A DNA stretch of 64,000 bases from contig NC_092677.1 of assembly GCF_964355755.1 (NCBI RefSeq), forward strand, positions 18,322,101-18,386,100, in the 5' to 3' direction. The notes below the pieces were generated by a model. The model was not told the origin of the DNA, did not search any database, and saw only the letters and a program-made list of their open reading frames with translations. Position numbers and translations under genes: made by a program. Position 1 is the first letter of the stretch; each line of letters begins with the position of its first letter. Of the stretch, positions 31,996 through 61,700 are shown in pieces. The stretch comes from Antedon mediterranea (Eukaryota > Echinodermata > Crinoidea > Comatulida > Antedonidae).

Positions 31996-32404
31996 CGGCC
32001 GGCCGCCGGCCGCGTAATTTTTTTTTCCAGAGGACGAACAACGTGGGCAGAAATCATGAATAATTCATGATTAATTATGACATAATAGAGAACATTATAG
32101 AGGGCGCTGTATAAGAATGCAGAGAGATTAAATAATTAGTGTAAACAACGTTTGCCAACCGAAATGTTTGTTCTAGTGGTAAAGGCTTTCACCTATTACG
32201 CTGAAGCCCTCGGTTCGAGGTCTTTCATGTACATGTTTTTTTTTTATAGTTGAGAGAGATTATTTAGAGGGTTAGGTTTAGTATATTTAGGAAATAGATC
32301 AGCTATCTTTCAATTCTTTATAATAGAAAATAATTAAGGTAATGAATTATTCATGACTTCTGCCCACGTTCGTCCTGGAAAAAAAAACACGCCGGCCGGC
32401 CAGC
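31996..32404. mobile_element. Fold-back element 1 with GGCCGGCC ends
   Basis: The left arm (GCCGGCCGCG, a T run, CCAGAGGACGAAC, GTGGGCAGAAATCATGAAT) pairs with the right arm (ATTCATGACTTCTGCCCAC, GTTCGTCCTGG, an A run, CGCCGGCCGGCC). The arms are about 70 bp. Between them is a tRNA-like segment at about 32,165-32,225 on the plus strand (TCTAGTGGTAAAGGC, then CCTCGGTTCGAGGTC). Confidence 0.8.
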
Positions 32405-34855: not shown

Positions 34856-34856
34856 T

Positions 34857-34957
34857 TGGTTATCCGCACTTGGCGGATAACCTCTTGTTATTGTCAGGAT
34901 CTTTTTTTTTTTTGGTTATCCGCACTTGGCGGATAACCCCTTGTTATTGTCAGGATC

Positions 34958-34988
<31 letters not shown>

Positions 34989-36560
34989 TTTTTTTCTATG
35001 TTCTTCTTTCTTTCCACGAATTTTGTTCGCAGCGTATCTCTAATTCTGGCCACCATATGATTGTATAACTTTGTCAAAACATTGCCATGTAGCTGTAGAT
35101 GTGCAAGAAACTTTTTTTTCTAAATTTTGAGTCGCGCATTGTAAGTTACGCGCGATTTTATGAATTTCAATGATTGATCATAGATTAAAAACCAAAACTC
35201 ATTTTGTATTGAAACTTGGTGAAAATTTCAGTTATATCAATCGCAAACTTTCTATGGATTAAAAATGGCATGTTTAACAGAAAGTTACGCGCGCACGCGC
35301 GTTTAAAAATTCAAAATGCGAAAAATCAATTTCTAATCAACTTTCTACGCGTTTCATGTCATTTTGAGCATTTCATAAATTCCCACGCATGCGCAATTTT
35401 TTTACGCGCGCGTGCGCACGTTGCACAAAATGGTTTTTTTTTTTTTGATTTATGTTTTTTTCAGTCTTTTCTAGTAATTTTATCAACTTTTCAAACAATT
35501 TCGACTTAAAATCACGTAATACGAGCACATAGAATTGGACAATTTGCGCGCGTTTTTGATGAAAATTTACAAAAATTTGTGAAAATTATGCCTTTTTTTA
35601 AACAGTCATAGATTCTAAACTACGTGGTGAACTTTTTTTAAATTGCATATTCTGGAAGTAGATGAGTTGTAGATATCGAATCATGAATCAATATGGCTAA
35701 CCGGACATTGTGACGTCATCGTATGGCCACACGAATATAAAATATAGGATTTTTGTCTATTTCTTCATAGGCTATCTTATTTAATAGAGCGCATCTCCAC
35801 TTATTCGTATTCCATTTCCCCCCATTTTTGTTATATTGGCTAGGTCATCAATTATCTTTCGCATGATTCACCATTTTTAAAACTGTTATGATGTCATCAT
35901 GTTTAAAAGTGTGAAAAACTTGGGTCACTTATTTTCATCAAATTTTTAATTTCCATTAAAATTAAATATTATATAGCTCCCCAAAATGAAAAGTGAGACT
36001 CATGATTAAAACGTTTTCTGGAAGCTGTTGAATAGTAGATACAAATTCATGTACTCATTTTGCGCATCGGCTGTTGTGACGTCATCATATGACCAGTTTA
36101 AAAGTCGTTTTTTCATATATTGTGTCATAGTTCATGACTTTTAAAAGAGCGTGCATCCATATTCTACGTACCAAAATTAGTTCAACATATTGATATGTTG
36201 TTACTCAGATAATTCCCTTCCAAAATTGCTTTCTACGTGTTTCATTTTGATGACGTCATCATGTTAAAAATTTGAATAAAAAGCGGGTCCTGTTATTTTC
36301 ACCTATTCTGCCCTGTATGTAGTGTATATACAGTATATAGTGTATACTGTATATACTTAGACAAAATATAGAGGGCACACTTACATTTTATTTTCTTCAG
36401 GCCAAAATGGCATAATCGTTAATCGGAATATTCTAACGTAACCTAATTCGTCTATAGTGACGAGTTCAAATCTATTTTTTTTCTATATTATCCTTCTTTC
36501 TTTCCACCAATTTTGTTCGCAGCGTATCTTTAATTCTGGTCAACATAAGATTGTATAAAT
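34857..36560. repeat. Complex repeat unit A (~1.5 kb, TGACGTCA-bearing)
   Basis: Starts with two copies of the hairpin GGTTATCCGCACTTGGCGGATAACC plus TTGTTATTGTCAGGATC, each followed by a T run. A long unit beginning TTCTTTCTTTCCACGAATTT (35,007) restarts near 36,490, giving a period of about 1,485 bp. Inside, a ~365-bp subunit repeats (TTCTGGAAG..GTAGATA..TGTGACGTCATC..ATATGGCC..AAAAGAGCG at about 35,650 and 36,015). The same unit recurs at 58.9-62.6 kb. No coding content. Confidence 0.85.
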
Positions 36561-40513: not shown

Positions 40514-43500
40514 TTAAAATTTAATTTGAATGGCTTCATGATAGCTATAATAAATTGGAATTACTTCAGCCTGTACTGAATCAAGACCTTTGCTATAAAC
40601 ATGATCAATCAATGTATTGTTTTCAGTTGTAGAACATGTAACATGTTGTTTGTACTCATTCTCTGCCATTAAATTATTCACTCTGGAAGATTGTTTGAAA
40701 AGATTTTCATTAAAATCACCAATTACAATACATTTTGTGCTCATTTTATGTAACTCTTCCAAATGTTTTCTCAAATTTTGACAGAACTGATTAATATCAT
40801 AACTTGGGGGTCGATAAATTACTGACACGGCAACAGAAATCGGACTTGTTATTAAAAATGAAACTGCTTCTATATCATTATTACATATTTTTAATCTGCT
40901 TGAAGACGTGTTCTTGGCATACACTGCAACACCACCATGAGCCTGATGTTTTATTTTGGAACTCAGATCATTTGTATTAGAATACGAATCATACCTTGCT
41001 TGGTGATACAATTTATACGGCTCAATGCGTACGTCAAAAACATCATCATCCTTGTTTAACCATGTTTCAGTTAGACATATGATATTAGAATTCATAAACA
41101 AATCATTACACTGAAGATCAACAAAATGTTGTTTAAGCCCTTGAATGTTATGTAACATTATTGAAAATCTAGAAGCCGAATCATGACCTTGTTTATCACA
41201 TTGTACGTATGAATCCATATTATTTAAGCACTTCTTTATGTTTGGATCACAATAAATCAGACTAGGTTTAAAATTTTCAATAGTAAGTCCAGTTATTGAA
41301 GTAACACGACTGAGGCCTACATATGCTTGTCCATGCGTAAAAGTATCTTTAAGACAAACCACTGCTTTATCCATTGTCATTCCTTGCACTTTATGAACTG
41401 TGCATGCATATGCTAATTTGAGAGGAAATTGTTTTCGACTGTATTTTTTTCCCATAGATTCTTTAAACATTTCAATTGCCTGAATACCAATGTCATTATT
41501 GTCAAATTTTACTTTAATAGATACTGGTTCGGTGTTATGATCAGGTTTGACTATTTCATCAACATGTCCCATACATCCATTCGTTAAGCCTTTTTTAACA
41601 TCTACATTTTTAATCAACATCACTCTGGCATTAATTGCAATCCACAAATAATTTAGTAAACTAGTTTGACGTGAATTCCGAGGTTTGTCACAATTTTTGC
41701 TCTGTTTCTTGCTATTTACTACACTATCTTCTGCTTTAATGCATACAATGTCTGTACAGGTTTTGTGCAACATTTTTTTATTCCATTCATCAACTTGTTT
41801 GTTGCGTGGGTAAATATGAACAGCATCTTCACATTGTTCACCTGTTTCACGTGATTTTAGAACTAATAAATCGTTATCAGACAAACAATCATGTTTTTCT
41901 TTTGTACGCAATTTGTTTAACAATAAAGCAAATTCTTTATCTTCTTTTTGCCTCATGATTTGATCTAACTGTACTTGCTTAAAGTTATCTATCCACAGTG
42001 AGCTTTCCAATGTGTCTTTATATAACGAACTGCCCATCACCGGGGGTAACTGATAAAAATCACCAACAGCAATTACTGAAATGTTACCAAATGGACTATC
42101 GTTGCGTACTTGTTTTATTTGCCTTAATCGTCCGTGGATATACCAAAGTAACCTTTGATTTACCATTGATATTTCATCTATAATAACAATTTGCAACTGA
42201 CCCAATTTATTACGAAGTGCACTTATTTTTTCTTCTCCAAGTGGTTGATACGGAAGTGAAATATTAATCGGGATAGACAAAGCGCTATGAATTGTTTGGC
42301 CTTTAATATTATATGCTGCGATTCCTGTAGGAGCTAATTTCAATATTGACAAATCATCGGGATTTTCCATAATCTTTCCAAGAATACGTGTCGCTTCATT
42401 ATAAATACAATTTACCAAATGACTTTTTCCTGTACCAGCGCCTCCAGTTATGAAAGTGTAAAATGCTTCAGGTTTTTTACCATTAACTTTGTCTAAACAC
42501 CATTGTCTTGTCTTATAAAATATATGTTGTTGTTTTTCATTTAAAGATCGAATCATTTTGTTCAATTCTGGTCTTGGAATATTAGATGAATTAGACTCTA
42601 CTTTAGATGTATGATTTTTTTGAATTCCAAAATCTGGAATGAAAAATTCACCTTCTTCATCATCAACCTCTACATTTGGCTTTGGGTTGTCTAACCTTTC
42701 TTTTTCACTTTCTGGACATAATAGGCTCCATGCATCTTCTTGTGGTCCAAATTTTGATAAACATTCCTGTGCTTCTTCAACATCATCAGCACTTTTTTCA
42801 TATTGTTCCCTGTTTCCGTGAACTATTGACTTTACCGTTTTTAATTGACAGCCACATAATTTCACACATCCTTCCTCGTGAAATTGTTCGTACGTTTCAA
42901 AATTTGGAGGTTTTAACTGTTCATCTTTTCGAAATGGTAGAAATAACTGAAGTATACTCAAGAAATATTTCTCAGGTGCTGTATCCATTGGAAATCGAGG
43001 GTATCTTATTATAGCATTACTAGTTCGTGTTCTTTTTTGGATGAATCCCAACTGTTTTTTTAACTGAAATACATTCTTTTTTTGTTTGTTTCCTTTCATT
43101 TCTGATGAACTCAATATTCTATATTCCGAACAAAATTTTGCAAGGCACATTTTATTAAATTCAGAACTATTAGGTCGAGCTTTATATTTGTCGATCTTAT
43201 TTGGCAACCATGCACTTACATCATCATCTTCTTTGTTTTTAATTACACTTAGTGGTAAACTCATTCTGACAGGATTAGGTCCTACTGGGATAAATTCAAC
43301 TTTCCTTGAACATTCTTTTAATCTTAAACTACAAACACGATAAATACTTTCTTGTGCAGACACTTCTCGATTATTCATATAAACATTACCAAGTTTTCGC
43401 AAACTTTGCCTAGCATCTTCATTGCCTTCTTTTACTTCTGATGCTGCATGATTTAACAGTAAACCCATTTCACGTTCAGATTTTGACATATATCCTATAA

Positions 43501-44254
43501 CGTAAATTATACATGCATAAACATTTGTAATATATTGAATATCCATATTTGCATTCCATGCTCTCAATAAGGAAGGATTATACTGATTTACCCACACATC
43601 TTGAGGGTTTCTCTTTATAACAATTTTTTCCTCAGTAGCTACACAATTATTTGCTTTCTCAAATGCACTCTGTGTAATACCTAAACTTTGGAAAAGTTCT
43701 ATTGCATTTTTATATGTTTCTTCATTAGTCACAGCATCTTTTACTGAGGTTAACAGCTCCATTGCTTGTTTATTGTCATCATTATCATCATTGTCTTTAT
43801 CCACAATTGTAGGTCTCATAACAAATGTATTTCCAGAAGGTTGTCTGGGAAAGTTAAATCTGCAATTTGTTCCCTTTTTTTTACATGATTTAGAATGTCT
43901 TTTACTGTGAATTTGCACACTTTTAACAATTTCATTCAGTTCACGATCTACAGTTTCACATGGCACAGCACAAGAAATATATTTATCAACAAAATTAATA
44001 ACTTCATTATCTTTATCTGTACCAAAAATAGGAGCATTTTCAACCCATACTAACATATGAACATGTGGACTTCCTCTCATTTGAAATTCAATTCGATAAA
44101 AATAATCTACGACTTTACCAATAGGCTGTGCTTCAGACAAAATTACATTTTTCAAAAAAGTATGAAAGCGTTTATCAAACATTCTGGCAACAGTCACTGG
44201 ATTTGATTTCAACAAATTACATTTATCTGCCCATTCTAATTCTTCAATGTTTCT
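40514..44254 (-). CDS. Helentron polyprotein, C-terminal part: Rep, helicase, endonuclease
   Basis: Numbering is from the TTG codon at 44215. HUH Rep: SPHVHMLVW with H51 and H53; the paired catalytic tyrosines are probably Y238 and Y242 (IIYVIGYMSKSE). PIF1-type superfamily 1 helicase: Walker A GGAGTGKS 591-598, Walker B IIDEIS with D680 and E681, GDFYQLPPV 718-726, YACTVHKVQGMT 936-947, and YVGLSR 965-970. C-terminal endonuclease/exonuclease/phosphatase-like domain: CLTETWL with E1050, SVIYRPPS, GDFN 1166-1169, IDH 1203-1205, SYH 1224-1226. The last motif is usually SDH, so the catalytic Asp is replaced by Tyr here. The part ends with a natural TAA. Rep nicks and joins DNA, the helicase unwinds it, and the endonuclease role in Helentrons is unproven. 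Confidence 0.92.
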   Translation of the reverse strand, partial: RNIEELEWADKCNLLKSNPVTVARMFDKRFHTFLKNVILSEAQPIGKVVDYFYRIEFQMRGSPHVHMLVWVENAPIFGTDKDNEVINFVDKYISCAVPCETVDRELNEIVKSVQIHSKRHSKSCKKKGTNCRFNFPRQPSGNTFVMRPTIVDKDNDDNDDNKQAMELLTSVKDAVTNEETYKNAIELFQSLGITQSAFEKANNCVATEEKIVIKRNPQDVWVNQYNPSLLRAWNANMDIQYITNVYACIIYVIGYMSKSEREMGLLLNHAASEVKEGNEDARQSLRKLGNVYMNNREVSAQESIYRVCSLRLKECSRKVEFIPVGPNPVRMSLPLSVIKNKEDDDVSAWLPNKIDKYKARPNSSEFNKMCLAKFCSEYRILSSSEMKGNKQKKNVFQLKKQLGFIQKRTRTSNAIIRYPRFPMDTAPEKYFLSILQLFLPFRKDEQLKPPNFETYEQFHEEGCVKLCGCQLKTVKSIVHGNREQYEKSADDVEEAQECLSKFGPQEDAWSLLCPESEKERLDNPKPNVEVDDEEGEFFIPDFGIQKNHTSKVESNSSNIPRPELNKMIRSLNEKQQHIFYKTRQWCLDKVNGKKPEAFYTFITGGAGTGKSHLVNCIYNEATRILGKIMENPDDLSILKLAPTGIAAYNIKGQTIHSALSIPINISLPYQPLGEEKISALRNKLGQLQIVIIDEISMVNQRLLWYIHGRLRQIKQVRNDSPFGNISVIAVGDFYQLPPVMGSSLYKDTLESSLWIDNFKQVQLDQIMRQKEDKEFALLLNKLRTKEKHDCLSDNDLLVLKSRETGEQCEDAVHIYPRNKQVDEWNKKMLHKTCTDIVCIKAEDSVVNSKKQSKNCDKPRNSRQTSLLNYLWIAINARVMLIKNVDVKKGLTNGCMGHVDEIVKPDHNTEPVSIKVKFDNNDIGIQAIEMFKESMGKKYSRKQFPLKLAYACTVHKVQGMTMDKAVVCLKDTFTHGQAYVGLSRVTSITGLTIENFKPSLIYCDPNIKKCLNNMDSYVQCDKQGHDSASRFSIMLHNIQGLKQHFVDLQCNDLFMNSNIICLTETWLNKDDDVFDVRIEPYKLYHQARYDSYSNTNDLSSKIKHQAHGGVAVYAKNTSSSRLKICNNDIEAVSFLITSPISVAVSVIYRPPSYDINQFCQNLRKHLEELHKMSTKCIVIGDFNENLFKQSSRVNNLMAENEYKQHVTCSTTENNTLIDHVYSKGLDSVQAEVIPIYYSYHEAIQIKF

Positions 44255-44257
44255 TTA

Positions 44258-44656
44258 GTCTCCAGACTGACTTAGCAATGTCGTCATTATTTCTTTCCAA
44301 CGGAAATCAGCACTTGAGAATGAAAGAAAGAATGTTGGTTTTCCAATCTGTCTAACCATTGCTATTATATCTTTTTGTGTAGCTTGCCAGTACGGTGGAG
44401 TTCCACGAATTTGTTTTAGAAATTTATAACCCCTATCAGATTTTAAAATCTCCTGAATTTTGGTAACATTTTTTAAATCGGATACAGTAACTTTGCTAAA
44501 ATCATCTTTTTTACTTGACCCTTTTCGCAATGCAATAGAAATACTTGATAAAATTTGTTGAAGTTCATATAAAGATTGAGCATAAAATATGAATTCTGTA
44601 TTTTGTGCAAACCTGTTATCTATATGCATTAATCTATTGTGAAAATAACGTCCAAG
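44258..44656 (-). CDS. Helentron polyprotein, middle part (Rep N-terminal domain)
   Basis: This is the same reading frame resuming on the far side of the inserted element: the duplicated 5-bp target sits at both borders, and the codon split by the insertion is completed in frame. About 131 codons follow, matching the Helitron_like_N region that precedes the HUH domain (YFHNRLMHIDNRFAQ, GTPPYWQATQKDIIAMVRQI). It ends at TAA 44257-44255, but the frame and the homologous sequence (NIEELEWADKCNLLKSNPVT) continue immediately after. The stop is therefore a nonsense change, not a natural end. Confidence 0.85.
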
Positions 44657-47158
44657 CAGGGCTCGCAGAATCCTAAAATATTTGGTTGCCCTTCGGGCAA
44701 GTAGGTTTTGGATTTTGGTTGCCCTCATCATTTTTTTACTTGCCCACTATTTTAACTTAATTTTAACGTTTTATACCGCGACTGCACCGCGAAAAAACGT
44801 CGGTGAAAAACGCCTATGCTTAATACACTGTGGTGTTTTTTTCGATGGATTTTAAAGTAGTGAAAACAATTTTTCAAATTTTTTCAATTACACAGTGATG
44901 TAGGCCAATCTTTTAAGAACATTTTACAGTAATTTATTTTCTCATACGATCCTCCGTACAAGAGTTGCGATTGTTTAATTAACATGGTGTCCTGAAATCC
45001 CTTGAAAACGCTATGTTATTTCTGTTGGTTACGCTTCGTTGCACGGCATTGTTTGTCATCGATCGAAGATGTGTTCCGTTTCGTGAATGAAAAGGCGTAT
45101 TCACGTGGGTTTACTTTGGGAGCAAAAACGTTTTGCTTCTATTGTGCAATGAAATTCCGAAATCAAGCTATTTTGCGATATTTAAAATGTAGTAGCCTAG
45201 ACATGGCACTAATTATCTTACAATTATTTAATAGATATATCTAAAATATTGCCTATAGAAATGTATGCCTCCTAGGCCTAAAAGTAGATTTCAGAAACTT
45301 TGGTTTTCTTAGGCTCTTTCAATTTACTCCGAAATGATTAAATGTTATTTTTATTAGGCCTGAGTGCTTTAATTTAGTAGTTTTTTTTGACAGTATATAA
45401 AAGGATGACGATGACAAAAGTGTATTTCGACCGTGCCAACCCGATGTTGCCGTCATGAAGGCCCTAAAAAGATTTTTCCCACGTGAAATTGAAATGAATG
45501 CATGAAACGTACGCGAAACGTAAATAAACATTGAGAGAGGCCAATTCCTCCATGGAAATAAAATTAATTAATATATTACTCCATCCATGGCGAGAGAAAG
45601 TAAAAATACTTCTTCCAAGAAACCCTTCACAAGTTCTCCGCTTTTTGGGTTTAGCCGCTCTTATGCGGGAAATTGTAAGCCTCCTCTATCTGTTGTGCAA
45701 GGAGCTAGTAGTTGTCTCAGGCAGCGCGCTCTCAGGCAGCGAGCTATTGAAATGTACGATTCCTACAACACGTAAATTGCTAGCCTAGAGAGCAGTGCGA
45801 GTCGCAACCGCTCTGAGAGTGCGAGGAGGAATTACCTACTGAGGCAAACTGCATGCGTGTGAGTGATTTGAACAACTCACGTGACATCAACATCCAATCA
45901 GAAAACAGTATTCTGGCTAGCTGGCAGTTTCGTTGAGCGAAAAAAAATATCGCCGTCCGTCTCTACGTGACGTGAAACAATACGCATGCGTATAGCAAAA
46001 AAACTCACAGCAGCTGCAGCCGTACGTAGTAGGAGCACATGGGTACGGTGTGTGGTGGAGAGTGCGGGCTTGTGGAAGTTTACTTGTTGTTTCAGTAGAA
46101 GCTCGCACAGGTTGGATAAAAACAACCATCTGCTCGCACAAGTTTGTGATTGAAAACAACACAAGGGAACTGTGCCGAATTGTGATGAAAACCACGTGCT
46201 CCGCCAAGTTGGAGTTTTTGAAATTTCAACTCTCGGCGATACCCGAGGAAGTGTATTATTTTCAATGTTGATAATAAAAAATATACTGTAACTATTTAAG
46301 TATTCAATGTATTTATTAAATAAATTATTAGGCCTATTATTTATTAAATTTATATTCTGTAATATTTATAAAAAAAATGGTAGGCCTACTTGCCTGTGTT
46401 AAAAACATCGGCCGGTGCCTATTTGGCACAGACAATTAAAATTACGTATCTATTATAATTTAATAATATACTGTATTTTCAATACAACTGTACATTTGAA
46501 CAATAATTACAGTAATTCAGCAAATTATTTATTACACACAAAATACATAACATGAATGTAATTAAACATAGGCCTAATCTACTATCAGGCTGTAGGCCAC
46601 ATAATTAATACTAAGTAGTAGATTCAGATTTTATTACCACCGTAGAATGATGTCGATAATTGAGAAAAACAAAAACATACTAGCCCCTATTTTATTTGGT
46701 TTATAGTATAACTAGGGAGTTAATTAGAAACTCCCTGGTATAATAACTTCGAATAAGTTAAAAGCCGAGAGTTCAACGCTTCCTATTTCGCGATCAATGG
46801 ATGCCGCAAGAGACCGCGTGCTATATGACAGACCTGGAAACTCTATACGCAACGACTTGATACGCCCGACTGCATAGAAACACATGTTTTGGCTCCTGGA
46901 GATAACGTTCCATACCGCCGAATTCCGATCCATACATTTACTTAACAAACACTACACTGGTCTCGACGTCAAGAGAATTCGTTCGTGCGCGACTATTATT
47001 TTCATTGTTACAGTTTTTCACAACCCCTGTAAAACATCGTGGACATTTTCGGTGATTTTAAGAGGTTGCCCGTCGGGACATGACATGTTAAATTTTAGTT
47101 GCCCGACGTATTTATTTGGTTGCCGCGGGACGTCGGGCAAGCGATTCTGCGAGCCCTG
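44657..47158. mobile_element. 2.5-kb inverted-repeat DNA transposon inside the Helentron
   Basis: Perfect 16-bp terminal inverted repeats CAGGGCTCGCAGAATC. Further inward, related GGGCAAGT/TTGCCC words form subterminal palindromes (GCCCTTCGGGC on the left, GCCCGACG..CGTCGGGC on the right). Target duplication CCAAG at 44652-44656 and 47159-47163. The CAGGGCTCG end fits the hAT superfamily, but the 5-bp duplication is shorter than the usual 8 bp; 5-bp hAT groups exist. I found no transposase frame, so it is non-autonomous. It interrupts the Helentron Rep N-terminal region and is therefore younger. Confidence 0.92.
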
Positions 47159-50100
47159 CCAAGTGTTATTTTAACATCTCTCGTATCATGGAATGTTGGT
47201 TGGCCTGTTGGAAATAAAACTGGAAATGATTTTGCTTCATTGCTTTTATTACTTAACAATGCAATAGGACTATTATTTTCACATGGTGCACAACAAATTA
47301 TGTCATTAAAATATTCATCAACCAAATTTTGTCGCCTGTCAACAGGTTGAAGACTTGTATCAAAGGTAACACCACATAATCGGTCTTCTATTTCTTCTTC
47401 TTTTTCTTCTTCTTCATTGTTTTCATTTTCATTAGTAGTTTCCCTTTCGATGTTATCTTCAGATAAATAATTGTGCCATTCTTCATTAATAGATATATCA
47501 AAATAGCACTTGTTATAATCCTGTAAATATCTAAGAGCTTGAATAACATTGGCAGTGTTAACAAATTTATATTTGTAATAACCTTTGTAAGACAACTTTC
47601 GCTTCAATTTTACAGATATTAATTGATCATCAACCTGTGGTCTAGGAAGCATTTTTACAGTTTCAATAGTATTTGAAGGTACACATACAACAGGTCCATG
47701 TATTCCATGCTGTCCACCTTTAGGTAAATTCATTAATTTCATAAAAGGAATGTTCAATCCAATCAAATGCTGCTCTAAATTATTTAAACACCTAAGCTCA
47801 GGAGGAATATCGTGTAGTTGTAAATTGTTTGAATTGGCTTCTGCAGGGACTTTCCCGTTTAACAATTTCCTGTGGCATGTGAAACAAATCCATAAACGAC
47901 ATCTTGGTGATTCGATAAATTGACAAGGTTTATTACATTCATTGTTGCAAATATGCAAATACTTTTCATTTATACAAGCCTTATTTTTGTACTTAGCTTT
48001 GGTGCACTTCATAACTTGATCTTTGAATAACATTTTAAAGCATACACAACAAACATATTCAGGACCACGAGAAACTGTTTCTCTGAAGTTTTCTAAAACA
48101 AACTCAAAATTAGTGTTTTTTGTTTTCCTTTTTTCCCGATTCTTCATGTTTTTCTTCATGACATTTTTTCGGAACCCTTTTTCACCATGATACTTTTCTG
48201 TAAATCTTTGCTTAACACTTTCACGGAATTTTAAATTACCTCGATATTTTTCTGCCAATTTTAGTTTACATTCGTGTCTAAATTTCAAATTACTCCGATA
48301 CCTTTCTGCCAAATTGTCTTTGCATTTTTGTCTAAATTTCAAATTACTCCGATACTTTTCAGCCAATTTTTCTTTCCAGTTTTGTCTAAATTTTAAATTA
48401 CTCCGATACTTTTCAGTAAATTTTTCTTTACAGTTTTGTCTAAATATCAAATTACTTCCATATTTCTCGGCCAATTTCTGCTTACAGCTTTGTCTGAATT
48501 TCAAATTACTCTGATACTTCTCTGCCATTTTCTGTTTACAGTTTTGTCGAAATTTTAGATTGTTCCGATACTTCTCTGCCAATTTCCGCTTACAGTTTTG
48601 TCGAAATTTCAAATTGTTCCGATACTTTTCTGCCAATTCCTGCTTACAGTTTTGTCGAAATTTCAAATTACTCCGATACTTCTCTGCCAATTTCTGCTTA
48701 CAGTTTTGTCGAAATTTCAAATTATTCCGATACTTCTCTGCCAATTTCTGCTTACAGTTTTGTCGAAATTTCAAATTACTCCGATACTTCTCTGCCAATT
48801 TTTGGGTAACATTTTCTCTGAATTTGGAATTATTACAATACTTCTCTGCTAATTTTTGCTTCAAGTTTTGTTGAAATGCTGGATCATTGTGATACTTTTC
48901 CTTATTTCTTTGATTATTGTTTTGTCTAGTTGTATGTCTAAACATTGTATCTTTGTTGTATCTATTCTTCTTTGTTTCTTTTTTGGTTGTTCGGTATTCC
49001 AAATTAATGTTGTAGTTATGTCTAGCTTTATTTCGAACCTTAACATTATATTCAGGATCACATCTATACATTTTGTATTGGTTTTTTCTGTTATCTTTCC
49101 TTTTTTGGAATTTATAATCATCATCATTACAATATCTCATTTTTTGTGCCTCTTTTACTTTTCGTTTCTTTTCCTCTCTGTATACAGAATCATTTTGATA
49201 TTTGATTCCGATTTCATTTGTTTCTTCTGAATTATTTTTTTCTTCTCTTTCCCGTTTTATTCTCTGTCGATTCTTGGCACTTTCTTTTCTTATTCTATAA
49301 GATTGTTTTCGTTTTCCTCTCAATATTTTGCCTCTGCTTTCTGAACAAGGTTTTTCAACAGTTTTACTCTGTTTGTGTTTTGGTTCTATATCTTCAAATG
49401 TGTCACAAGTTTCTTTTTCCGTTTTCTTTCGTTTCTTCGTTGCCACATTCATATCAACTTGTCCTGTTGTTTCCTGAACATTATTTTGACTGACATTGAC
49501 AGATTCCACTACATTAAAATGGACATTCATGGTGTACAAAATATATATACCATTGTCAGTTGTAACATCATCTATTCTTCCCGGCTTTTTAGCAGAAAAC
49601 AATTGCCACGTCAAAAGTTGATCATTAAATGAATAAATATCTGTATTAAGCAAATTTGCCATTGCACTTATTTCAGTATTGGATGCCCACGTTCCATTAT
49701 CCATAACTCTTTTTTTTAACACATATTCCTTAACTGATCTATATTCGTGACTAATTAATGTATTAATAAACAAGTCATCAGTCTCCAATAAATGATTAGT
49801 AATTGCTCTTCTTAAAAGTAAATGATTATCTTCAGTACCAGAAATAATGTATGAAATTGCACGATAAAAACAATTACCATCACCTGTAATATTTGTAATT
49901 TGAAAAGGATGTCCAATCTGACTAGCTCTGTTAATACCACAATTCATATCGGTATGTTCACAATGAATACGTAATTTATTACACATGTGTTTCTTTTGTT
50001 CTTCTGAGATCGGAATAAATTTAAAATTCTCGTCAGGTCTTTTTCCATACTGAACATTAACAATGTCAATATCACTATCACTTTGCCATCCATTACTTGA

Positions 50101-52527
50101 TGAGACATGACCTTCTTTATTATGTTTTTTGCCTTTAACGCTAGAATCAATATTCTTGTCTGGTAATCTTGTGCTACATTTATACTGATAAGACGTACTA
50201 GGTTCATCAACATCGACGTTTCCCAAGTTTCTTTGTTCACAATTATCATCGAGCACAGAAGCGGAACATAACATCATAGACTTATTTTCAATATTTACAC
50301 CAGTCAGTTCAAACTCGGTTTCATGTAAATTACAGTTCATTGACCTTGCTAATCTTATACAATAATCGTACACACCTTGCCAAGATGGACTGTAAAGTAA
50401 AATACTCGTTCCATGTTCACTAACACAACCAAATCGATCTCTTGCATGTGGATCAAATATAAGAAATCCATTTACACGTTTGATAATAGAAAATGTGCTT
50501 CTGTTGAAATTCATAAAAAATGCATCATGTTGGTGTAATTCTTGTTCAAGTGCTTGGTTTAATGACAAGGCTCCATATTCAGCCATAAATTCGAGATTCC
50601 CATCTATTATGCCAAAAACTGATTCTTTTGGAGATATTACAAATGTGTTATCCAAGATATCCAATTCTTTTGGCAGTTCAGAAATCATCAAAAGGTCCTC
50701 ATGCATAGTGGAATCTTTCTGAATGTAACGGTACAACTCGTTTCCAAGAGTTAATATTGTATCAAGGTCTTTGGTGTAAAATTCATTTCCATTCCTTTTT
50801 GTAGAATAAAGAATAGCTACAAGACTATTTGCAACACACTGTTTACCACTTGCAAAGCCAAATCTATAATTCCCTTGATTAAAATTACCCTGTGCTACAG
50901 TTATATTTTCATTACTATTATATAGGCCTACTTGTAATTCATTTATTGATTGTGTTTTCTGCCGTTTTCGTGTATTTTTTTGTTTTGGTACCTCATCGAT
51001 TATCAATTCTTCCGAAAAATTATTTTTTGTTAAAACTTCAAAATCTACATGGATAGTATGTTGCTCACATTTAGGTTTAGTATGGAACCTAATTTTTTCA
51101 GTGACTGCTTTTTTGGATCCGTCATTAATTATCAATACTTTATTTTTCTCAAATTCACAACTTGCACATGTTTGATTTTTATGATCTGTACCATTACTAT
51201 CCAATATTCTAATTCTGTCATTCATTTTGCTATTATTTTGTGCTTTCGCATCGTCAGTCGCTGTGTTGTCGTTTTCTACAGTACATTCCATTTTAAAATC
51301 CTCGTCAGTTTTCGTTTCAGAATTGTCATTATTACCCATGTTCTTTATATCTTTGCCAAACCGTTCCATAATATCACAATCATTCTTTAAATTCAGGTCC
51401 ACATTACCTTGTGCTTTTTTATTATCAATCTTCTTAGTTTTGACAAAACGACCCTTGTTATTTCGTAAACGTTTCGAACCACCACCTGATTGTTGTTGTA
51501 TTCCGTGCGTTACTTTTGTATTTTTCAAATCATCACACATAGGCCTACCACTGTCGTCAATTATTGTTTGTGAATTTCCCAATACATTCGTTTTACCATT
51601 TTCTTTGTTGTATTCTCTGTAAGTATTTGTATTCATATTCCATTCCATTTTGTTATTATTTCGTCTTTCATAGAAATCTTTTACACCTTTGCCAATATAT
51701 TTTACACCTGGTTCTATACTTATACCATTTATAACGCGCTTTCTCCTTTTCTTATTTCCTCTATTTTTACATCTTTTTTTTCTGTTGTCGGTTCTTTTCT
51801 TTGATCTTACTCTCATCCAATCACTACCAAGTAAATCTTCACTTCCTGTTTGTTGACATTTTAATTTTGCATTATTACAACGTTTTTCTTTATTTTTCGT
51901 TAATTCTGGAAAGTCTGAAGTGACAGATTCATCAGGTTCTAGAATCGTATATCTATTGAAATGACAGGGAATACCTATTTCACCCAACATGTTATCAACA
52001 AAATTACTATTCCCACACATTGAACAAATCCAAATTAACCGGGAATTACATAGTTTGTCTTCAAAAACATCTCTTACACATTTCACATGAAAATATTGAC
52101 TACAACAGTCACATTTTATGCAATTGTCGTCTGCTTTCACTTCAATACTACATAAATCGCATGTATCACCAAACTTTGAAGTCTCCTCTGTACCATAAGA
52201 TAATATGTTTATGATATCATTAATTATTTCTTTAAATTCAGTTGTATCTTTCATAAATTCACAATTGACATTACCTGTATCATCATTTCTCTCGTCTTTG
52301 ACATTCTCAGTTGAACAGCATTTATCAAGTAGGTCCAAGATGTCATTAACAACTATTTTAAATTCTGCTGTCTTATCCATAACTCCATTATTAACATTAC
52401 CAGTTGTATTGACAAAAATCTGCTTTTTACTTGTAACTTCTTTATTCACATTCTTACACAAATAAATTATGATTGTAAAGATAATCAACAAAAAGATACC
52501 AACTACTGCTATGAATTCCATATCCAT
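47159..52527 (-). CDS. Helentron polyprotein, N-terminal part (~1,789 codons)
   Basis: Start MDMEFIAVVG. Residues 5-24 form a hydrophobic helix, unusual for a nuclear transposon protein. A tandem duplication follows (GNVN..F..I(V/I)NDI, about 43-70 and 85-112). A C4HC3 PHD finger uses C123, C126, C139, C142, H147, C150, C168 and C171. A Lys/Arg cluster at 242-264 is a likely nuclear signal. About 545-760 is a cysteine-protease-like domain with GKQC (C564) and FDPH (D692, H694), like the C76 peptidase fold. About 870-1010 is an OTU domain with GDGNC (C886) and HFNVV (H1003). Then come fourteen 18-residue repeats (about 1206-1451), a DUF6570-like Cys-rich region (about 1490-1700, with CCVCF and GGQHGIHGPVV), and the beginning of the Helitron_like_N region (FPTGQPTF). 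The open frame continues 64 nt into the inserted element by chance. Confidence 0.9.
48175..48910 (-). repeat. 54-bp coding repeat, 14 units, in Helentron ORF
   Basis: An 18-residue motif, consensus KLAEKYRSNLKFRQNCKQ, occurs 14 times at exact 54-bp spacing (Tyr codons near 48,190 to 48,891). The central units are nearly identical and the outer ones diverged, the usual sign of unequal exchange from the middle. The motif is basic and probably helical. The opposite strand is open as a shadow. Confidence 0.95.
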
Positions 52528-53011
52528 TATTCAAAATTTGTATAAAAAAATAATTTCTTCAAATTTAAAAACTTTGTTTACAAATTAAATTAAAATGTAT
52601 TCTGCAATTCCAATGAATATTACAATTAGGTTCTTTTTATCAATTCAAACTTCAAAAAAGAAATCCTTGCTACAACAAAATAAATTATTAAAAATTCCAA
52701 AAACAATTCAACTTTATATTGTCTTTTGTTTCTATGACTTTTAACTTTTGTCCTAATTTCTTTTCTCTTTGTCAATATTTTTTTTGTCTGCTTTTTTTCA
52801 ATAATTCGATTATACAATTTCACTGAATAAAAAAATTAGCTTCTGCTTAATATTGGCTTGATGAAATACTTTATATTAATTTAAACTTCTCTGTAATACT
52901 TGGTTATGCTAAATAGTTTCAGATTCTAATTTTTATTCTTTTTACAATTCTACTTAATAACAGATTTAAATAAAAGTGATCTTTAAATCTTCTTTAATTA
53001 ATTCCTTTGTA
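52528..53011. other. Helentron 5' flank, AT-rich, no gene
   Basis: T-rich on the plus strand. The minus-strand frame at 52626-52823 is Lys-rich low complexity and I do not support it. Probably the 5' leader of the Helentron transcript. Confidence 0.4.
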
Positions 53012-53335
53012 ATAAACTCTGTTTAATATTTATTTCTTTATAATAAGCTTCTGTTTTATTCTTCAAACTTTTGTTTGTATAATCAAACTTTAACTTTACA
53101 CTTTTGCTTTTGCAAAAAATGGTTTTGTAATAAACTTTTGTTTATTAATTGTTTCCTTGTGATTAACTTCTGTTATCTTCAAGGTTTTACACTTTTGCTT
53201 TTGCAAAAATGGTTTTGTAATAAACTTTTGTTTATTAGTTGTTTCCTTGTGATTAACTTCTGTTATCTTCAAGGTTTTACACTTTTGCTTTTGCAAAATT
53301 GCTTTGTAATAAACTTTTGTTTATTAGTTTTTTCT
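53012..53335. repeat. ~90-bp tandem repeat, three good units
   Basis: Unit words CTTTTGCTTTTGCAAAA, TGGTTTTGTAATAAACTTTTG, TTTCCTTGTGATTAACTTCTG and TTATCTTCAAGGTTTTACA, starting near 53,101, 53,191 and 53,279. Degenerate units extend left to about 53,012. Each carries AATAAA on the minus strand. Probably Helentron-linked, since that class often has tandem repeats near its ends. Confidence 0.9.
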
Positions 53336-53493
53336 GAATGTTTTAAAGATACTTTTAAAAAATGTTTAAAAAGAAATTGTGCATAAATATTAAAATTCGG
53401 TAACCCCTCGTAGAAACTCTCTTTGGAGAGTGGATCTTTTTCTAAAGACCCGGATCTCTTCTGAGATCCAGTGGGTTTATATAAGACAGTCAC
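53269..53493 (-). CDS. Possible terminal exon after the microexon cassettes
   Basis: A strong 3' splice site (a pyrimidine run, then TTTTATTGTAG|GTGACTGTC) is followed by an open frame VTVLYKPTGSQKRSGSLEKD and on, closing at TAA within the ~90-bp repeats. The frame is compatible with the 32-nt cassettes upstream (they end at a codon border in the frame CRKYTVSATA). No known family. The last third is repeat sequence and the middle is a hairpin run, so this may be non-coding, for example a 5'-UTR exon of the Helentron transcript. Confidence 0.3.
   Translation of the reverse strand: MTVLYKPTGSQKRSGSLEKDPLSKESFYEGLPNFNIYAQFLFKHFLKVSLKHSEKTNKQKFITKQFCKSKSVKP
53416..53469. other. Three back-to-back stem-loops
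   Basis: ACTCTC-TTTG-GAGAGT (53416-53431); GGATCTTT-TTCT-AAAGACC with one bulged base (53432-53450); GGATCTC-TTCT-GAGATCC (53452-53469). Each has a 4-nt loop and they are separated by no more than 1 nt. Candidate structured RNA or transposon-terminal hairpins. Confidence 0.8.
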
Positions 53494-54087: not shown

Positions 54088-56689
54088 TGTTTTTTCCGTT
54101 TTACAGATAATTTTCTAATACTCACAGCTGTAACTGGCACTGTATATTTTCTGTACAACTACAATCTAAAAAATAAAAGGAAAATCATTAATAATGGCAA
54201 TAAACAACATTAACACTTTTTCAAAATCAACATGCTTCTTAATCAATGTCTGAAAAATTAAGAAATTTTCTCAAAATGACTTTGGGTATTAGACAGCTGG
54301 TTAGGGCCTACATGTTGTCTCAATGCTAATTTCATTTAATATTTTATTCACAAACCATAAAATCTGAATTATGTAAATGTTTCATAATAGAACATGCCTA
54401 CAAAATAACAGGCAACGGTTCACAAAGTAAAGAAAATATGTTGTATCCGTTTAACAGATAATCTACTAATACTCACAGCTGTAGCTGACACTGTATATGT
54501 TCTACAATCTAAAAAAAAAAAACAAGGAAAAACATTAATAATTGGCAATAAACAACATTAACACTTTTTCCAAATCAACATGCTTCTTAATCAATGTCTG
54601 AAAAATTAAGAAATTCCTCAAAATGACTTTGGGTATGAGACAGCTGGTTAGGCCTACATGTTGTCTTAATGCTAATTTCATTTAATATTTTATTCACAAA
54701 CCATAAAATCTGAATGATGTAAATGTTACATAATAGAAAATGCCTACAAAATAACAGGCAACGGTTCACAAAGTAAAGAAAATATGTTTTCTCCGTTTAA
54801 CAGATAATCTACTAATACTCACAGCTGTAGCTGAAACTGTTAATTTTCTACAACCTAAAAAAAAACAAGGAAAAACATTGATAATGGCAATAAACAACAT
54901 TAACCCTTTTGCTCAATCAACATGCTTCTTAATCAATGTCTGAAAAATTAAGAAATTTCCTCAAAATAACTTTGGGTATGGGCCGGCTGATTGGGGTCTA
55001 CATGTTGTCTCAATACTACTTTCATTTAATATCTTATTCAAAAACCATAAAATCTGAATTATTTAAATGTTTCATAATATAAAATGCCTACAAAATAACA
55101 GGCAACAGTTCACAAAGTAAGGAAAATATGTTTTCTCCGTTTAACAGATAATCTACTAATACTCACAGCTGTAGCTGAAACTGTTAATTTTCTACAATCT
55201 AAAAAAAACAAGGAAAAACATTGATAATAGCAATAAACAACATTAACACTTTTTCCAAATCAACATGCTTCTTAATCAATGTCTGAAAAATTAGGAAATT
55301 TCCTCAAAATGACTTTGGGTATGGGCCGGCTGATTGCGGCCTACATGTTGTCTCAATGGTAATTTCATTTAATTGTTTGATCACAAACAATAAAATCTGA
55401 ATTACGTAAATTTTTCATAATAGAAAATGTCTACAAAATAACAGGCAACAGTTCACAAAGTAAGGAAAATATGTTTTCTCCGTTTAACAGATAATCTACT
55501 AATACTCACAGCTGTAGGTGAAACTGTATATTTTCTACAATCTAAAAAAAAAAAAGGAAAAACATTGATAATGGCGATAAACAACATTAACACTTTTTCC
55601 AAATCAACAAGCTTCTTAATCAATGTCTGAAAAATTAGGAAATTTCCTCAAAATGACTTTGGGTATGAGACGGCTGATTAGGGCAGGCAACAGTTCACAA
55701 AGTAAGGAAAATATGTTTTCTCCGTTAAACAAATAATCTACTGATACTCACAGCTGTAGCTGAAACTGTATATTTTCTACAATCTAAAAAAAAACAAGGA
55801 AAAACATTGATAATGGTAATAAAACAACATTAACACTTTTTCCAAATCAACATGCTTCTTAATCAATGTCTGAAAAATTAGGAAATTTCCTCAAAATGAC
55901 TTTGGGTATGGGCCGGCTGATTGCGGCCTACATGTTGTCTCAATGGTAATTTCATTTAATTGTTTGATCACAAACAATAAAATCTGAATTATGTAAATGT
56001 TTCATAATACAAAATGTCTACAAAATAACAGGCAACAGTTCACAAAGTAAGGAAAATATGTTTTCTCCGTTTAACAGATAATCTACTAATACTCACAGCT
56101 GTAGCTCAAACTGTATATTTTCTACAATCTAAAAAAAAACAAGGAAAAACATTGATAATGGTAATAAACAACATTAACACTTTTTCCAAATCAACAAGTT
56201 TTTTAATCAATGTCTGAAAAATTAAGAAATTTCCTCAAAATGACTTTGGGTATGAGACGGCTGATTAGGGCAGGCAACAGTTCACAAAGTAAGGAAATTA
56301 TGTTTTCTCCGTTTAACAGATAATCTACTGATACTCACAGCTGTAGCTGAAACTCTATATTTTCTACAATCTAAAAAAAACAAGGAAAAACATTGATAAT
56401 GGTAATAAACAACATTAACACTTTTTCCAAATCAACACGCTTCTTAATCAATGTCTGAAAAATTAATAAATTTCCTCAAAATGACTTTGGGTATGAAACG
56501 GTTGATTAGGGCAGGCAACAGTTCACAAAGTAAGGAAAATATGTTTTCTCTGTTTAACAGATAATCTACTAATACTCACAGCTGTAGCTGAAACTGTATA
56601 TTTCCTACAATCTAAAAAAAACAAGGAAAAACATTGATAATGGCAATAAACAACATTAACATTTTTTCATGAGTATATGTAATACTATA

Positions 56690-57230
56690 ATTTGTAATAG
56701 TTTGGAAAATATTATAATTGTCAAGAAGGTGCATGGTTCTTAAATTTAAAAATAAATGTTGTTTTTCGGTAACAACCCGACAAAATCATTAATAAATGTT
56801 GGTCCCTCTCTAATATTTCTATGTTGATTAATTCAATTTTTTAAAACTATATACTATATATTTTGAATATTGATTTTAAAGCATATTGAAATAAATTTTA
56901 CTGTAAAAATGCTGGTTTAGCTTACTGTAATAACACTGGTCACAGACTGACATGTCAGTCTGTGACCAACTCGGTAACAACCAGACACTTTTTAATATCA
57001 TATAAAAATGTAAAAATAAGGTTTTAAAAAAAAGTAACCTCATGAGTGTATGTAAAGCTATAATTTTTAATAGTTTGGAAAATATTATAATTGTCTAGAA
57101 GGTACATGGTTCTTAAATTAAACAAATGTTTTTTGGTAACAACCCGACAAAATTATTAATAATTATGTTGGCCCCTCCTTAATATTTCTATGTTGATTAA
57201 TTCAATTTTTTTAAACAAAATCTCAAACAA
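56690..57230. repeat. Two ~370-bp-spaced copies inside the cassette array
   Basis: AGTTTGGAAAATATTATAAT, GGTTCTTAAAT, GGTAACAACCCGACAAAAT and ATATTTCTATGTTGATTAAT occur in order near 56,699-56,840 and again near 57,070-57,210. They are unrelated to the cassette unit and separate cassette 9 from cassette 10. Probably one inserted element or a second local duplication. Confidence 0.85.
56937..56968. repeat. Perfect 32-bp palindrome
   Basis: TGGTCACAGACTGACA followed immediately by its exact reverse complement, with no loop. It sits midway between the two ~370-bp copies, so it may mark the junction or end of the element inserted there. Confidence 0.9.
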
Positions 57231-57620
57231 TATATTTAGTTCTTTAATTCTAAAAAGAAATGACATGTATAAATTAGGATTTAGTTGTCTGTTATAGGAT
57301 TTAAGTAAACCTCATATTGTTTTATTTTTTAAGTTTTCTAAATATCATTATTTTAAATGGAAATATGTCTGTATATATCTCTTTTTTTTTTACCACTTAA
57401 ATATCCTGAAAGTATATAACATTAGCTTTAGTTTTATATCAAACATGTTAAGACTGCTAAAAGTTGAACATTTTTAAAATCCCCCAAAAAATTGTGGAAT
57501 TGCCCTACTAATACTCACAGCTGTAGCTGAAACTGTAAATCTTCTGTTAATAAAAAACAATTACAATCTAAAAAATACAAGGAAAAACATTGATAATGGC
57601 AATAAACAACATTAACACTT

Positions 57621-58745
57621 TTTCCAAATCAACAAGCTTCTTAATCAATGTCTGAAAAATTAGGAAATTTCCTTAAAATGACTTTGGCTATGGGCCAGCT
57701 AATTGGGGCCGACATGTTGTCTCAATGGTAATTTCATTTAATAGTTTGATCACAAACAATAAAATTTGAATTATGTAAATGTTTCATAATAGTATAAATG
57801 CCTACAAAATAACAGGCAACACTTCACTCCCAATCATGAGACCATAAATCATCTCTACAAATTATTTATTTTATGTTCACTATTTACGATATTCTAGAGA
57901 TTATGAAGTACTGTAGAAACAATAATGTTATTACTGTACATGTATCTCTTCCAACTCTTTAGGAACTGATACAACTAAAAACTAGGCCTAGCCCCTACCT
58001 AGGAGGCCTAGGCTAGTAGGCATAGAAGAGAACTTCGCAAAAAGCAGACTCAGCTTGCTAACAATGCTAAGTAGAGTAGGCTATATTATACCGGTATTTA
58101 ATTTTAAGGCATGGTATTCAAGATAAAGTTTGTTAACAAATTAGGAATTAATATATAGTTATAAGCCAGATGCAAAATGGAACTAGGCTAGCGTCACTAT
58201 GCCTCTACTACAGTACTGTACAACTAAACCTAGGCTAGGCTAGGTCTAGGCCTTCCTGAAGAGGTAATCCGGGACACGGCTAGGCCTAACCTAGCTAGGC
58301 CTAGCCTAGAGGGCCTAGGCTAGGCCATTTCATTTTGATGGCAAACACAAAAACAATTAAATATTACAAATCAACAATCCAAATTAATCAAAATATATCT
58401 TACCTATTTCTAACTATTATATTTAACACAATTGTGTTTAAACTTTTTTAATATAGGCTATATGTTCGTTTTAACAATATAAAATTGCAAAGCAATATCG
58501 GGAGCAATACTAGGCTATAATATTACAAATCCAACATGGAGGTGTAACCACGTTGTTCTTTACTAATATGGCACGCAATCGTCGCCAAAAGTAACATAAA
58601 TGCTGTAGGCCCAGACACAATTCACCACACTTTCACCATAAAAGTAGAGAGCGCATAAACATTTTTTCAATGGATGGCATAATCGTTTTTCTGTGCACAA
58701 TATTCTAACGTATGACGTGCGCTGCGGATAACCTAACTCGTCCGT
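57621..58745. other. Spacer, TAGGCCTA-rich, no gene recognised
   Basis: The last partial cassette flank ends near 57,830. After that, TAGGCCTAGCCTAGG low-complexity sequence (57,985-58,330) resembles that just upstream of the EGF-gene signal exon. If a minus-strand transcript uses the cassettes, its first exon could lie here, but I found no ATG exon with a donor of the right phase. Confidence 0.4.
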
Positions 58746-61700
58746 AGTGACGAGTTCAAATCTAGTTGGTTATCCGCACTTGGCGGATAACCTCTTGTTA
58801 TTGTCAGGATCTTTTTTTTTTTTTTTTTTTTTTTTCTATGTTATTAGTTATCCGCTTAGTAGCGGATAACTCCTTGTAATCGTCCTGTTTCATCAAATTT
58901 TTTTTCTGTATTATACTTCTTTCTTTCTGTCATTTTTGTGCGTCGCGTTTCTCTAAAACGTGTAGACAGAACATATCGTAACTTTGTCAACATATCGACA
59001 TTTACGTGAACTTGTGCACCTCCTATTTTTGAATGACGTCAGAGTTGCGCAACGTGACTTACGCGCGATTTTATGAATTTCAATGATTGATCATAGACTA
59101 AAAACCAAACATAATTTTGTTTTGAAACCTTGTGAAAATTTAAGTCATATCAAGCGCAAACTTTCTATGGATTAAAATTAGCATGTTTCACAAAAAGTTA
59201 CGCGCGCACGCGCGTTTAAAATTTTAACGTGCGAAATATAAACTTCTAATCAACTTTCTATGCGTTTCATGTCATTTTGAGCATGTCAAAAATTCCCACG
59301 CGCGCGAACATTTTTACGCACGCGGTGCACACGTAGCGTTAAAAACATATTTTTTTCGCGTGATTTATGTTTTTTCAGCCTTTTCTAGTAATGTTACCAA
59401 ATTTTAAACAATTTCGACTTAAAATTACGTCATACGAGCACGTCGAATTAGATAATTTGCACGCGTATTTGGTGAAAAAGTTCAAAAATTCGTCAAAATT
59501 ATGCCTATTTTTAAACAGTCATAGATTCTAAACTACATGGAGAACTTTTTTTTAATTACATATTCTGGAAGTTGATGAGTTGTAGATATCGGATCATGCA
59601 TTAATATGGCTAACCGGACATTGTGACGTCATCGTATGGCCACGCGAATATAAAATATAGGATTTTTGTCTCTTTCGTCATAGCTCATCACATTTAATAG
59701 AGCGCATTTCCACTTATTCGTTGTCCATTTTCACCCCGATTTTAATATATTCTAGATCTATCAACTATCTTTTGCATGAATTAAAATTATTTTAATTTTT
59801 TTAACGTCATCATGCCTAAAAATTTAAATTACGTTGGTCATTAATTTCATCTTTACAGTAAATTTTAATCTGTTATAGCTCTTAAGAATAAAATGTGATA
59901 ATCACGATTAAAACGTTTTCAGGAAGCTATTGTATTGTAGATACAAAATCATATGAAAATTGTGCCAATCGAATGTTGTGACGTCATCATATGGCCAGTT
60001 TAATAAAAATGTCGTATTTTCATCTTTTGCGTTATATTTCATTACATTTAAAAGAGCGCGCATCAATATTTCACGTATTCAAATTTCTTCTACAGGTTAA
60101 TATGTTGTTGCTGAGATAATTTCGTTCTGAAATTTCTACTTTTGCATTTCATTTTGAAACCGTCAAGATGTTAAAAATTACAATAAAATACCGGTCCCGT
60201 AATTTCACCTATTTTACACTGTTTGTGATATGTATACAGATTGTGACGAGTTTCATGTCTAACTTCTTTCTTTCTGTCATTTTTGTGCGTCGCGTTTCTC
60301 TAAAACTTGTAAACAGAACATATCGTAACTTTGTCAACATATCGACATTCACGTGAACTTGTGCACCTCCTATTTTTGAATAACGTCAGAGTTGCGCAAC
60401 GTGAATTGCGCGCGAATTTATGAATTTCAATGATTGATCATAGATTATAAACCAAACGTTATTTTGTATTGACACTTAGTGAAAATTTAAGTCATATTAA
60501 GGGCAAACTTTCTATGGATTCAAAATGGCATGTTTCACAAGAAGTTATGCGCGCACGCGCATTTAAAATTTCAAAATGCGCAAAATTAATTTCTAATCTA
60601 CTTTCTACGCTGATCATGACATTTTGAGAATGTCAAAAATTCCCATGCGCGCGAACAATTTTACGCGTAAGGTGCGTACAGTGCATGACAATCATGTGTT
60701 TTTCTCTTGAATTATGATTTCACAGCCTTTCCTAGTCATTTTAAAAAGATTAACATCATTTCAAATTAAAATGACGTCATACGAACACGTTGATTTAGAC
60801 CATTTGCGCGCGTTTTAGTTGAAAAAGTTATAAAATATTGTCAAAATAATGCCAATTTTTAATCTATTATAGCTGTTCAGAATCAATAGTTACCCCAATT
60901 TTTTTACTTATTATGTAAGAAGATAAATTGTAGATATGAATTCATGCAGAATTTTTGTCTCTTTCGTTATTGGTCATCATATTCAACAGAACGCATCTGG
61001 CTTATACGTATTCCATTTCCCCCGAGATTTTAATATTATCTACGTTAATCAACTATCTTTCGTATGAGTTAAAAATATTTTAATTTTTGTGAGTCATCAT
61101 GTCTAAAAATGTAAATAACGTGGGTCACTTATTTTCATCTTTACAGTAAATTTCATTCTGTTATAGCTCGTCAGAATAAAAAGTGATAATCATAATTAAA
61201 ACGTTTTCTGGAAGCTATTGGATTGTAGATACGAATCCATGTGAACATTTTGCCAATCAGATGTTGTGACGTCATGATCATATTTTCATATTTAGCGGCA
61301 TAGTTCATCACAATTAAAAGAGCGCGGATCTATATTTTACGCACTGAAATTTCTTTTACGCGTTAATATGTTTTTGCTGAGATAAATTCTTTCCGAAATT
61401 GCTATCTTAGTGTTTCATTTTGATACCGTTGCCATGTTAAAAATGGATCGAATTTCTGTTATGAGTATACAGTACTTGCCTTTACGACGCCTGAGGGAAT
61501 AGAAACTTGTGGAACAGAGATTGGAATGTTCCATTCATCACAAATCAATACATTTGTATAAACGTATAGTAAATGTATCAAAATAGCATTTTTTAAGGAA
61601 AATCGGCCTGTCTTCAACATTATGATGCTGTACTCGAACTGTTCAACCGGTTTTCAGCTATTAAAAATAATTATCGTAGGAGGAGATAGGAAAATGCGAA

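Follow-up and report, generated by a model that had tools for sequence, protein, structure and literature searches.

The ten short exon-like segments on the minus strand of the 64,000-nucleotide stretch of Antedon mediterranea DNA analysed here (the window) are probably copies of a single non-coding, internal exon in the 5' UTR of a Helentron, amplified together with its introns. These segments, or cassettes, lie between 54,126 and 57,567 within the Helentron 5' leader. Eight measure 32 nt, another has 40 nt and the 5'-most has 49 nt (or 25 nt), and each is flanked by a T-rich AG acceptor and by the donor GTGAGTAT, which is present in 10 of 10. The coordinates bear out an initial annotation of this DNA, which had described ten minus-strand cassettes, eight of them exactly 32 nt long, between T-rich AG acceptors and GTGAGT-type donors, and the downstream acceptor that it placed at 53,493 is indeed there as TTTTATTGTAG/GTGACTG. 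Its spacing of 242 or about 345 bp describes eight of the gaps (241 to 351) and fails for one of 939; from 5' to 3' the donor-to-donor distances are 939, 241, 242, 345, 242, 343, 344, 346 and 351, and Tandem Repeats Finder reports periods of 343 and 241 for the array. The distinct variant represented by the last cassette is also the 3'-most unit in the arrays of L008-L020. Positions of the features are collected in Table 1.

Table 1. Features of the Helentron and its leader in the window, in the direction of transcription proposed here
Feature	Positions	Strand	Basis
Putative part of 5' exon 1, from the CTCCATGTTG block (58532-58541) to the last base, 58404	58404-58541	-	alignment and 18/18 loci
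Cassette 1, 5'-most variant, 49 nt (counted from the first AG) or 25 nt (from the inner TTAACAG)	57519-57567	-	
Cassette 2, 32 nt	56580-56611	-	
Cassette 3, 32 nt	56339-56370	-	
Cassette 4, 32 nt	56097-56128	-	
Cassette 5, 32 nt	55752-55783	-	
Cassette 6, 32 nt	55510-55541	-	
Cassette 7, 32 nt	55167-55198	-	
Cassette 8, 32 nt	54823-54854	-	
Cassette 9, 32 nt	54477-54508	-	
Cassette 10, 40 nt, distinct 3'-terminal variant	54126-54165	-	
Putative leader exon (5'-UTR part), from the acceptor TTTTATTGTAG/GTGACTG to the first ATG of the 1811-aa frame	52528-53493	-	
Three predicted hairpins enclosed by AACCC and GGGTT, where the leader exon begins	53402-53477	-	fold and covariation
N-terminal part of the Helentron ORF: OTU, Herpes_teg_N, DUF6570, 18-aa repeats	47095-52530	-	
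Rep/PIF1 helicase/endonuclease region, divided between two frames in the window copy	40514-44746	-	

Judged by its predicted proteins, the minus-strand element that carries the array is a Helentron. The three frames scanned match Pfam Helitron_like_N (1.6e-16 and 1.4e-16), PIF1 (2.2e-29) and, at the C-terminus, Exo_endo_phos (1.3e-8, residues 1036-1223 of 1246), together with OTU (3.8e-7), Herpes_teg_N and DUF6570; an OTU-like protease has been reported for Helentrons and is not universal among them, and an RPA-like ORF has been reported for some. The ORF is split in the window into stop-to-stop frames at 47095-52530, 44255-44746 and 40514-44254, and it is interrupted at 44255-47094, perhaps by inserted DNA. 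Within it, at 48227-48877, lies a 54-bp repeat in 12 copies that encodes 18-aa repeats of the KLAEKYRSNLKFRQNCKQ type. For the Rep/Hel region, 32 of the 37 matches scored, out of 751 first-look candidates, fall in single open frames of 3026-3181 aa, which indicates that the family includes many very similar copies with a long ORF. Helentrons characteristically have subterminal inverted repeats and a 3' palindrome and insert in T-rich DNA. In the window, possible terminal features of this kind are GGTTATCCGC hairpin repeats beside T-runs at 34856-34991 and 58766-58845, and a repeat in the same orientation flanks the Helentron (35002-36271 and 58915-60178) and recurs upstream at 60262-61444. The flanking repeat and the GGTTATCCGC hairpin may reflect either a head-to-tail insertion or a preferred target repeat.

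The 343-bp unit has at least 460 matches in the 354-Mb genome. The 150 of these 460 that were listed form 28 clusters, each located 1.0-2.6 kb from a match to the Helentron leader, and none of these 150 lies away from such a leader. Together with the splice signals in the 179 units described below, the 460 matches indicate that the cassette array is more than a chance arrangement. A dispersed satellite, for which the initial annotation had proposed a genome-wide search, was not found among the 150 matches listed, all of which are associated with Helentrons, and a stray satellite is on those 150 of 460 matches ruled out. The related suggestion of a satellite that captured an exon looks, on the same 150 of 460 matches, to be the reverse of what happened: the exon seems to be ancestral to the element and to have been amplified inside it.

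Comparison of 26 fetched loci shows how variable the array is. The number of cassettes is 17 in L015, 16 each in L017 and L018, 15 each in L012 and L016, 14 each in L009 and L019, 13 each in L013 and L014, 12 each in L010 and L011, 10 each in L020 and the window, 7 in L024, 4 in L008 and 1 each in L021-L023; the counts for L016, L017, L019 and L020 are possibly low, because the fetched stretch begins near the first unit. An open frame of more than 3,000 aa, paired with the cassettes by position, is present in 15 of these 18 cassette-bearing loci, and the three that lack it are the window (split frame), L009 (a stop-containing fragment) and L017 (no match listed). The loci L021-L023 have exactly one cassette each, with an exon of 38 nt, and combine it with open frames of 3108-3125 aa and a Rep/Hel region 98% identical to that of the window, indicating that one cassette is enough for a complete-looking copy. 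Given copy numbers of 1, 4, 7 and 10-17 among the 18 loci, we conclude from the comparison that the array is a derived amplification.

A range of 1 to 17 units among copies with long frames implies that unit number is uncritical, and this is also what would be expected if the units acted at the level of DNA, either as sites bound by Rep or by some host factor or through drift of a subterminal repeat, the exon and its splice sites being passengers. Helentron-derived elements often carry tandem repeats, as described in PMC4067079 and PMC7492417, so the presence of an array would on its own fit such a reading. Passenger splice sites should, however, decay like the introns around them. In order to avoid selecting units by their splice sites, we located them through intron anchors (HMM) on either side, which gave 190 upstream and 185 downstream hits, 179 of them paired. 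GTGAGT is present in 179/179 of these units and an AG acceptor in 178/179. Both signals were scored by script in 176/179; the remaining three, read by eye, have a TTAG acceptor (L018), TAAG with a shifted donor (L008) and AA in place of AG (L014). Twelve of the 17 unpaired anchor hits (six upstream, six downstream) still have a cassette, and the other five comprise four partial units at the trailing end (L021-L024) and one in L019 that is interrupted.

Nucleotide diversity was calculated on 158 of the 179 units, collapsed to 129 distinct ones, which, owing to homogenisation within arrays, do not amount to 129 independent tests. In this set pi is 0.000 over donor positions +1 to +7, 0.005 for the TAG and 0.047 for the T-tract, compared with 0.074 for the exon, 0.068 for the upstream intron and 0.050 for the downstream intron. 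None of 138 seven-column intron windows is as low as the donor, and the longest invariant run among the 129 distinct units is CTGTGAGTA, with 9 columns, the next longest having 4. The signal of constraint on the donor is thus clear. The exon itself varies as much as the introns do: among 88 intron windows, each of 32 columns, 91% are no more variable. The earlier caveat that intron parts are as conserved as the splice sites therefore does not hold for the donor (0.000 against 0.050-0.068), yet on the acceptor side it stands in part, since the intronic, acceptor-like TTTTTCAG is about as constant within arrays as the true cassette acceptor. The comparison of cassettes with flanks that the initial annotation had proposed thus finds an invariant donor and an exon (0.074) as variable as its surroundings. 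In L005 the counterpart of the intronic TTTTTCAG is present without its AG. The case for constraint on the acceptor comes mainly from comparison between families.

Between families, the relevant loci are those with a single, diverged exon. L001-L005, L025 and L026 have one exon each, with an AG/ATTGT acceptor and a donor. L001-L004 form a diverged family in which the exon measures 61, 65, 61 and 65 nt respectively, with the acceptor TATTTTGTAG/ATTGTA and the donor TTTAT/GTGAGTC; the Rep/Hel regions of L003 and L004 are 85% and 86% identical to that of the window and lie in open frames of 3070 and 3026 aa. The single exon of L005 has 51 nt and a donor with GC instead of GT, that of L025 has 69 nt and the donor GTAAGTG, and in L026, a relative of L001, the exon read from the printed sequence is bounded by TTTGCAG/ATTGTAG and GTGAGTG. 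In 300 first-order Markov simulations per locus, the cassette acceptor motif was equalled in 0/300 for L001, L003, L004, L005 and L021, in 4/300 for L002 and in 3/300 for L025. A blind scan of L001-L005 and L025 with the cassette-donor motif of the window does not recover the donor (P 0.22-0.91), and the donors in these loci were recognised solely by their position behind the acceptor and through L005. The introns of L001-L004 are mostly without a match in the window, the exceptions being the splice-site regions and one 52-nt stretch shortly before the leader acceptor, which matches L001-L004 at 81% and means that more than splice sites has been kept there. From this comparison, the exon is older than the array, and its splice sites appear to have survived while the introns and the body of the exon changed. 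That splice sites outlast most of the intron sequence between families, and that the donor shows a pi of zero across the 129 distinct units, both run against the DNA-level reading, which we regard as quite unlikely; drift can account for the amplification but not for the exon.

The sites on either side of the array are conserved as well. Upstream, a putative exon 1 ends at the donor AGAAATAG/GTAAGA, with GTAAGATAT read from 58,403 downwards, and the CTCCATGTTG block lies approximately 120-150 nt upstream of this donor, with one mismatch in L022. Donor and block are present in 18/18 of the loci whose fetched DNA reaches that far, the region being outside the fetched DNA for L016, L017, L019 and L020, and neither was found in L005, L025 or the fragments L006 and L007. 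In L001-L004 only 0 or 1 of 300 simulations gave an exon-1 donor as good. A genome pattern search for a second form of this donor returned 23 sites with 0-1 mismatch and 2 further sites with 3 mismatches, against 3 in the control. Downstream, the leader exon has 27 long genome matches including the window, in addition to the diverged L001-L005, with which the region from the T-tract to the end of the hairpins is 72-75% identical (E 1e-14 to 7e-18). The leader acceptor motif taken alone is clear in L005 (0/300) and borderline in L001-L004 (P 0.03-0.07), and in L021 and L025 it has its best match at another place, the TTGCAG leader acceptors of these two loci having been read by eye. A 90-bp repeat in 2.7 copies lies within the leader exon at 53095-53334, and the number of matches to it varies among elements.

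These flanking sites bear on a further alternative, in which every unit would act as a promoter monomer that supplies a first exon of its own, spliced from the GTGAGT donor to 53,493, and the T-tract and AG would not function as an acceptor. A tandem array at the transposon's 5' end, with the donor as its most constant part, is in keeping with such an arrangement. A first exon, however, needs neither an acceptor nor a donor upstream of it, and diverged loci with one copy and mostly unmatched introns retain the AG/ATTGT acceptor, while the upstream donor is conserved in all 18 loci that reach it; both observations weaken the promoter-monomer reading and leave it unlikely. The interpretations offered in the initial annotation hold in part: a set of Helentron 5'-UTR exons is supported by the single-copy homologues and the conserved flanking sites, and an array of alternative microexons is possible.

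The leader exon begins with what appears to be a structured RNA. The segment 53,390-53,500 folds at -36.4 kcal/mol (z -3.3), with a closing stem that pairs GGUGAC with GUUACC in the computed fold and AACCC with GGGTT in the sequence comparison. In eight distinct sequences, pairing holds in 94.2% of cells and five of the pairs carry changes on both sides. Shuffled controls reached the observed value in 0/500 cases for four of five measures and in 202/500 for the fifth, further pair types, and alignments that had been slid were 25-58% paired. Hairpin 1 and the closing stem show further two-sided changes in L021. When arms are exchanged among four families, native arms pair in 101/101 cases and swapped arms in 280/300, a modest difference. 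The three-hairpin RNA, often with AGAA loops, was observed in the window, L001-L005, L007 and L021-L025, and the hairpin unit is duplicated in L003, L004 and L007. At 3900-6200 of L007, copies of the hairpin unit stand beside unrelated sequence which by eye resembles a host gene made up of several exons, all very short. A role at the level of RNA, such as in translation, in export or as a protein site, seems likelier for the leader hairpins than a role at the level of DNA. Neither the leader RNA nor the units match an Rfam family at E up to 5. An array of spliced-leader RNA genes is not supported: no Rfam SL family matches between 34 and 64 kb at E up to 5, and the acceptor preceding the exon also argues against it.

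A coding function for the cassettes is most improbable. The proposal would be that they are coding microexons which add a CRKYTVSATA peptide to an upstream protein product, and its starting point is that in the window a reading frame stays open from the 32-nt cassette onwards into the leader exon, the shared frame to which the initial annotation had drawn attention. Exon lengths across loci, however, are 32, 38, 40, 51, 61, 65 and 69 nt, and 4-nt indels separate the exons of the close relatives L001-L004, so that no frame is conserved and CRKYTVSATA is ruled out as a conserved coding frame. Nor does the rest of the evidence favour a peptide: the exon body is as variable as the intron, the joined frame stops before the main ORF, and the leader that it enters shows paired changes. 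ATG is absent from the distinct cassette exons, as read by eye, and from six diverged exons, and is present in the exon of L026.

Taken together, these comparisons of DNA suggest an ancestral leader in which exon 1, ending in AAATAG/GTAAGA, would have been joined to an internal exon bounded by AG/ATTGTAG and GTGAGT, and this in turn to the leader exon, with the three-hairpin RNA at its start followed by an ORF of approximately 3,100 aa. In the family of the window the internal exon would then have been tandemly duplicated with its flanking introns, to 10-17 units in most of the array copies fetched. Since each unit is a whole set of acceptor, exon and donor, without ATG and upstream of the ORF, the gain of further units would be nearly harmless to the protein, and any one of them could be taken up or left out by a transcript. 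Where a unit lost its donor alone, intron would become exon, which could account for the invariant donors. We infer from their conservation that the leader sites are spliced. Patterns for the cassette-leader, cassette-cassette, exon 1-cassette and exon 1-leader junctions, allowing up to 3 mismatches, had 0 matches in the genome, so splicing is not shown by any retrocopy. A stronger version of the exon-amplification reading holds that the array is a splicing device in which up to 17 interchangeable non-coding microexons vary the leader or buffer its splicing, followed by a structured leader RNA that would itself be new and with the donor of every unit under selection; this we put forward tentatively and think rather doubtful.

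Several known systems share parts of this arrangement. PMC4067079 describes Helentrons with a fused endonuclease, OTU-encoding ORFs and, in some copies, tandem repeats, and the element in the window resembles them in its Helitron_like_N, PIF1, C-terminal Exo_endo_phos and OTU matches. As presented there, those Helentrons have several ORFs and no introns, whereas here the leader looks multi-exonic with one exon arrayed, and the words "splice" and "untranslated" do not occur in the main text of that paper. Oyster HINE elements, which are non-autonomous, contain satellite-like arrays of mostly 140-180 bp monomers (PMC7492417) and are similar in having short tandem arrays inside Helentron-related elements; in contrast, the array reported here stands in the 5' leader of ORF-bearing copies with an acceptor-exon-donor set in each unit, and "exon" and "splice" are absent from the main text of PMC7492417. 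Mouse L1 also has tandem units upstream of its ORF, described in PMC9022269 as 5'-UTR monomers that are promoter units, whereas the present units carry the signals of an internal exon. The Dscam genes of Chelicerata, with tandemly arrayed 5' cassettes before a common body (PMC4835542), are comparable in layout, but Dscam is a protein-coding gene of the host, and here the exons are non-coding, 32-49 nt long and part of a transposon. In a limited open-access search of titles and the beginnings of abstracts we found no report of a transposon with a non-coding leader exon in an array, or of the leader RNA.

If our reading is correct, this transposon has multiplied a non-coding leader exon, rather than a promoter or a coding domain, with the donors intact. 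Close relatives with 1 to 17 copies would provide a natural test of how 5'-UTR splicing is shaped by the number of exons, the length of microexons and the strength of splice sites, and the comparison points to a structured RNA, one without a match in Rfam, at the start of Helentron leaders. Two further repeats were observed elsewhere in the window, a GGTGATGATT minisatellite of approximately 88 copies at 10586-11477 and, at 32403-33639, long inverted repeats of fold-back-like appearance with arms of 165/159 nt at 99% and 96%.
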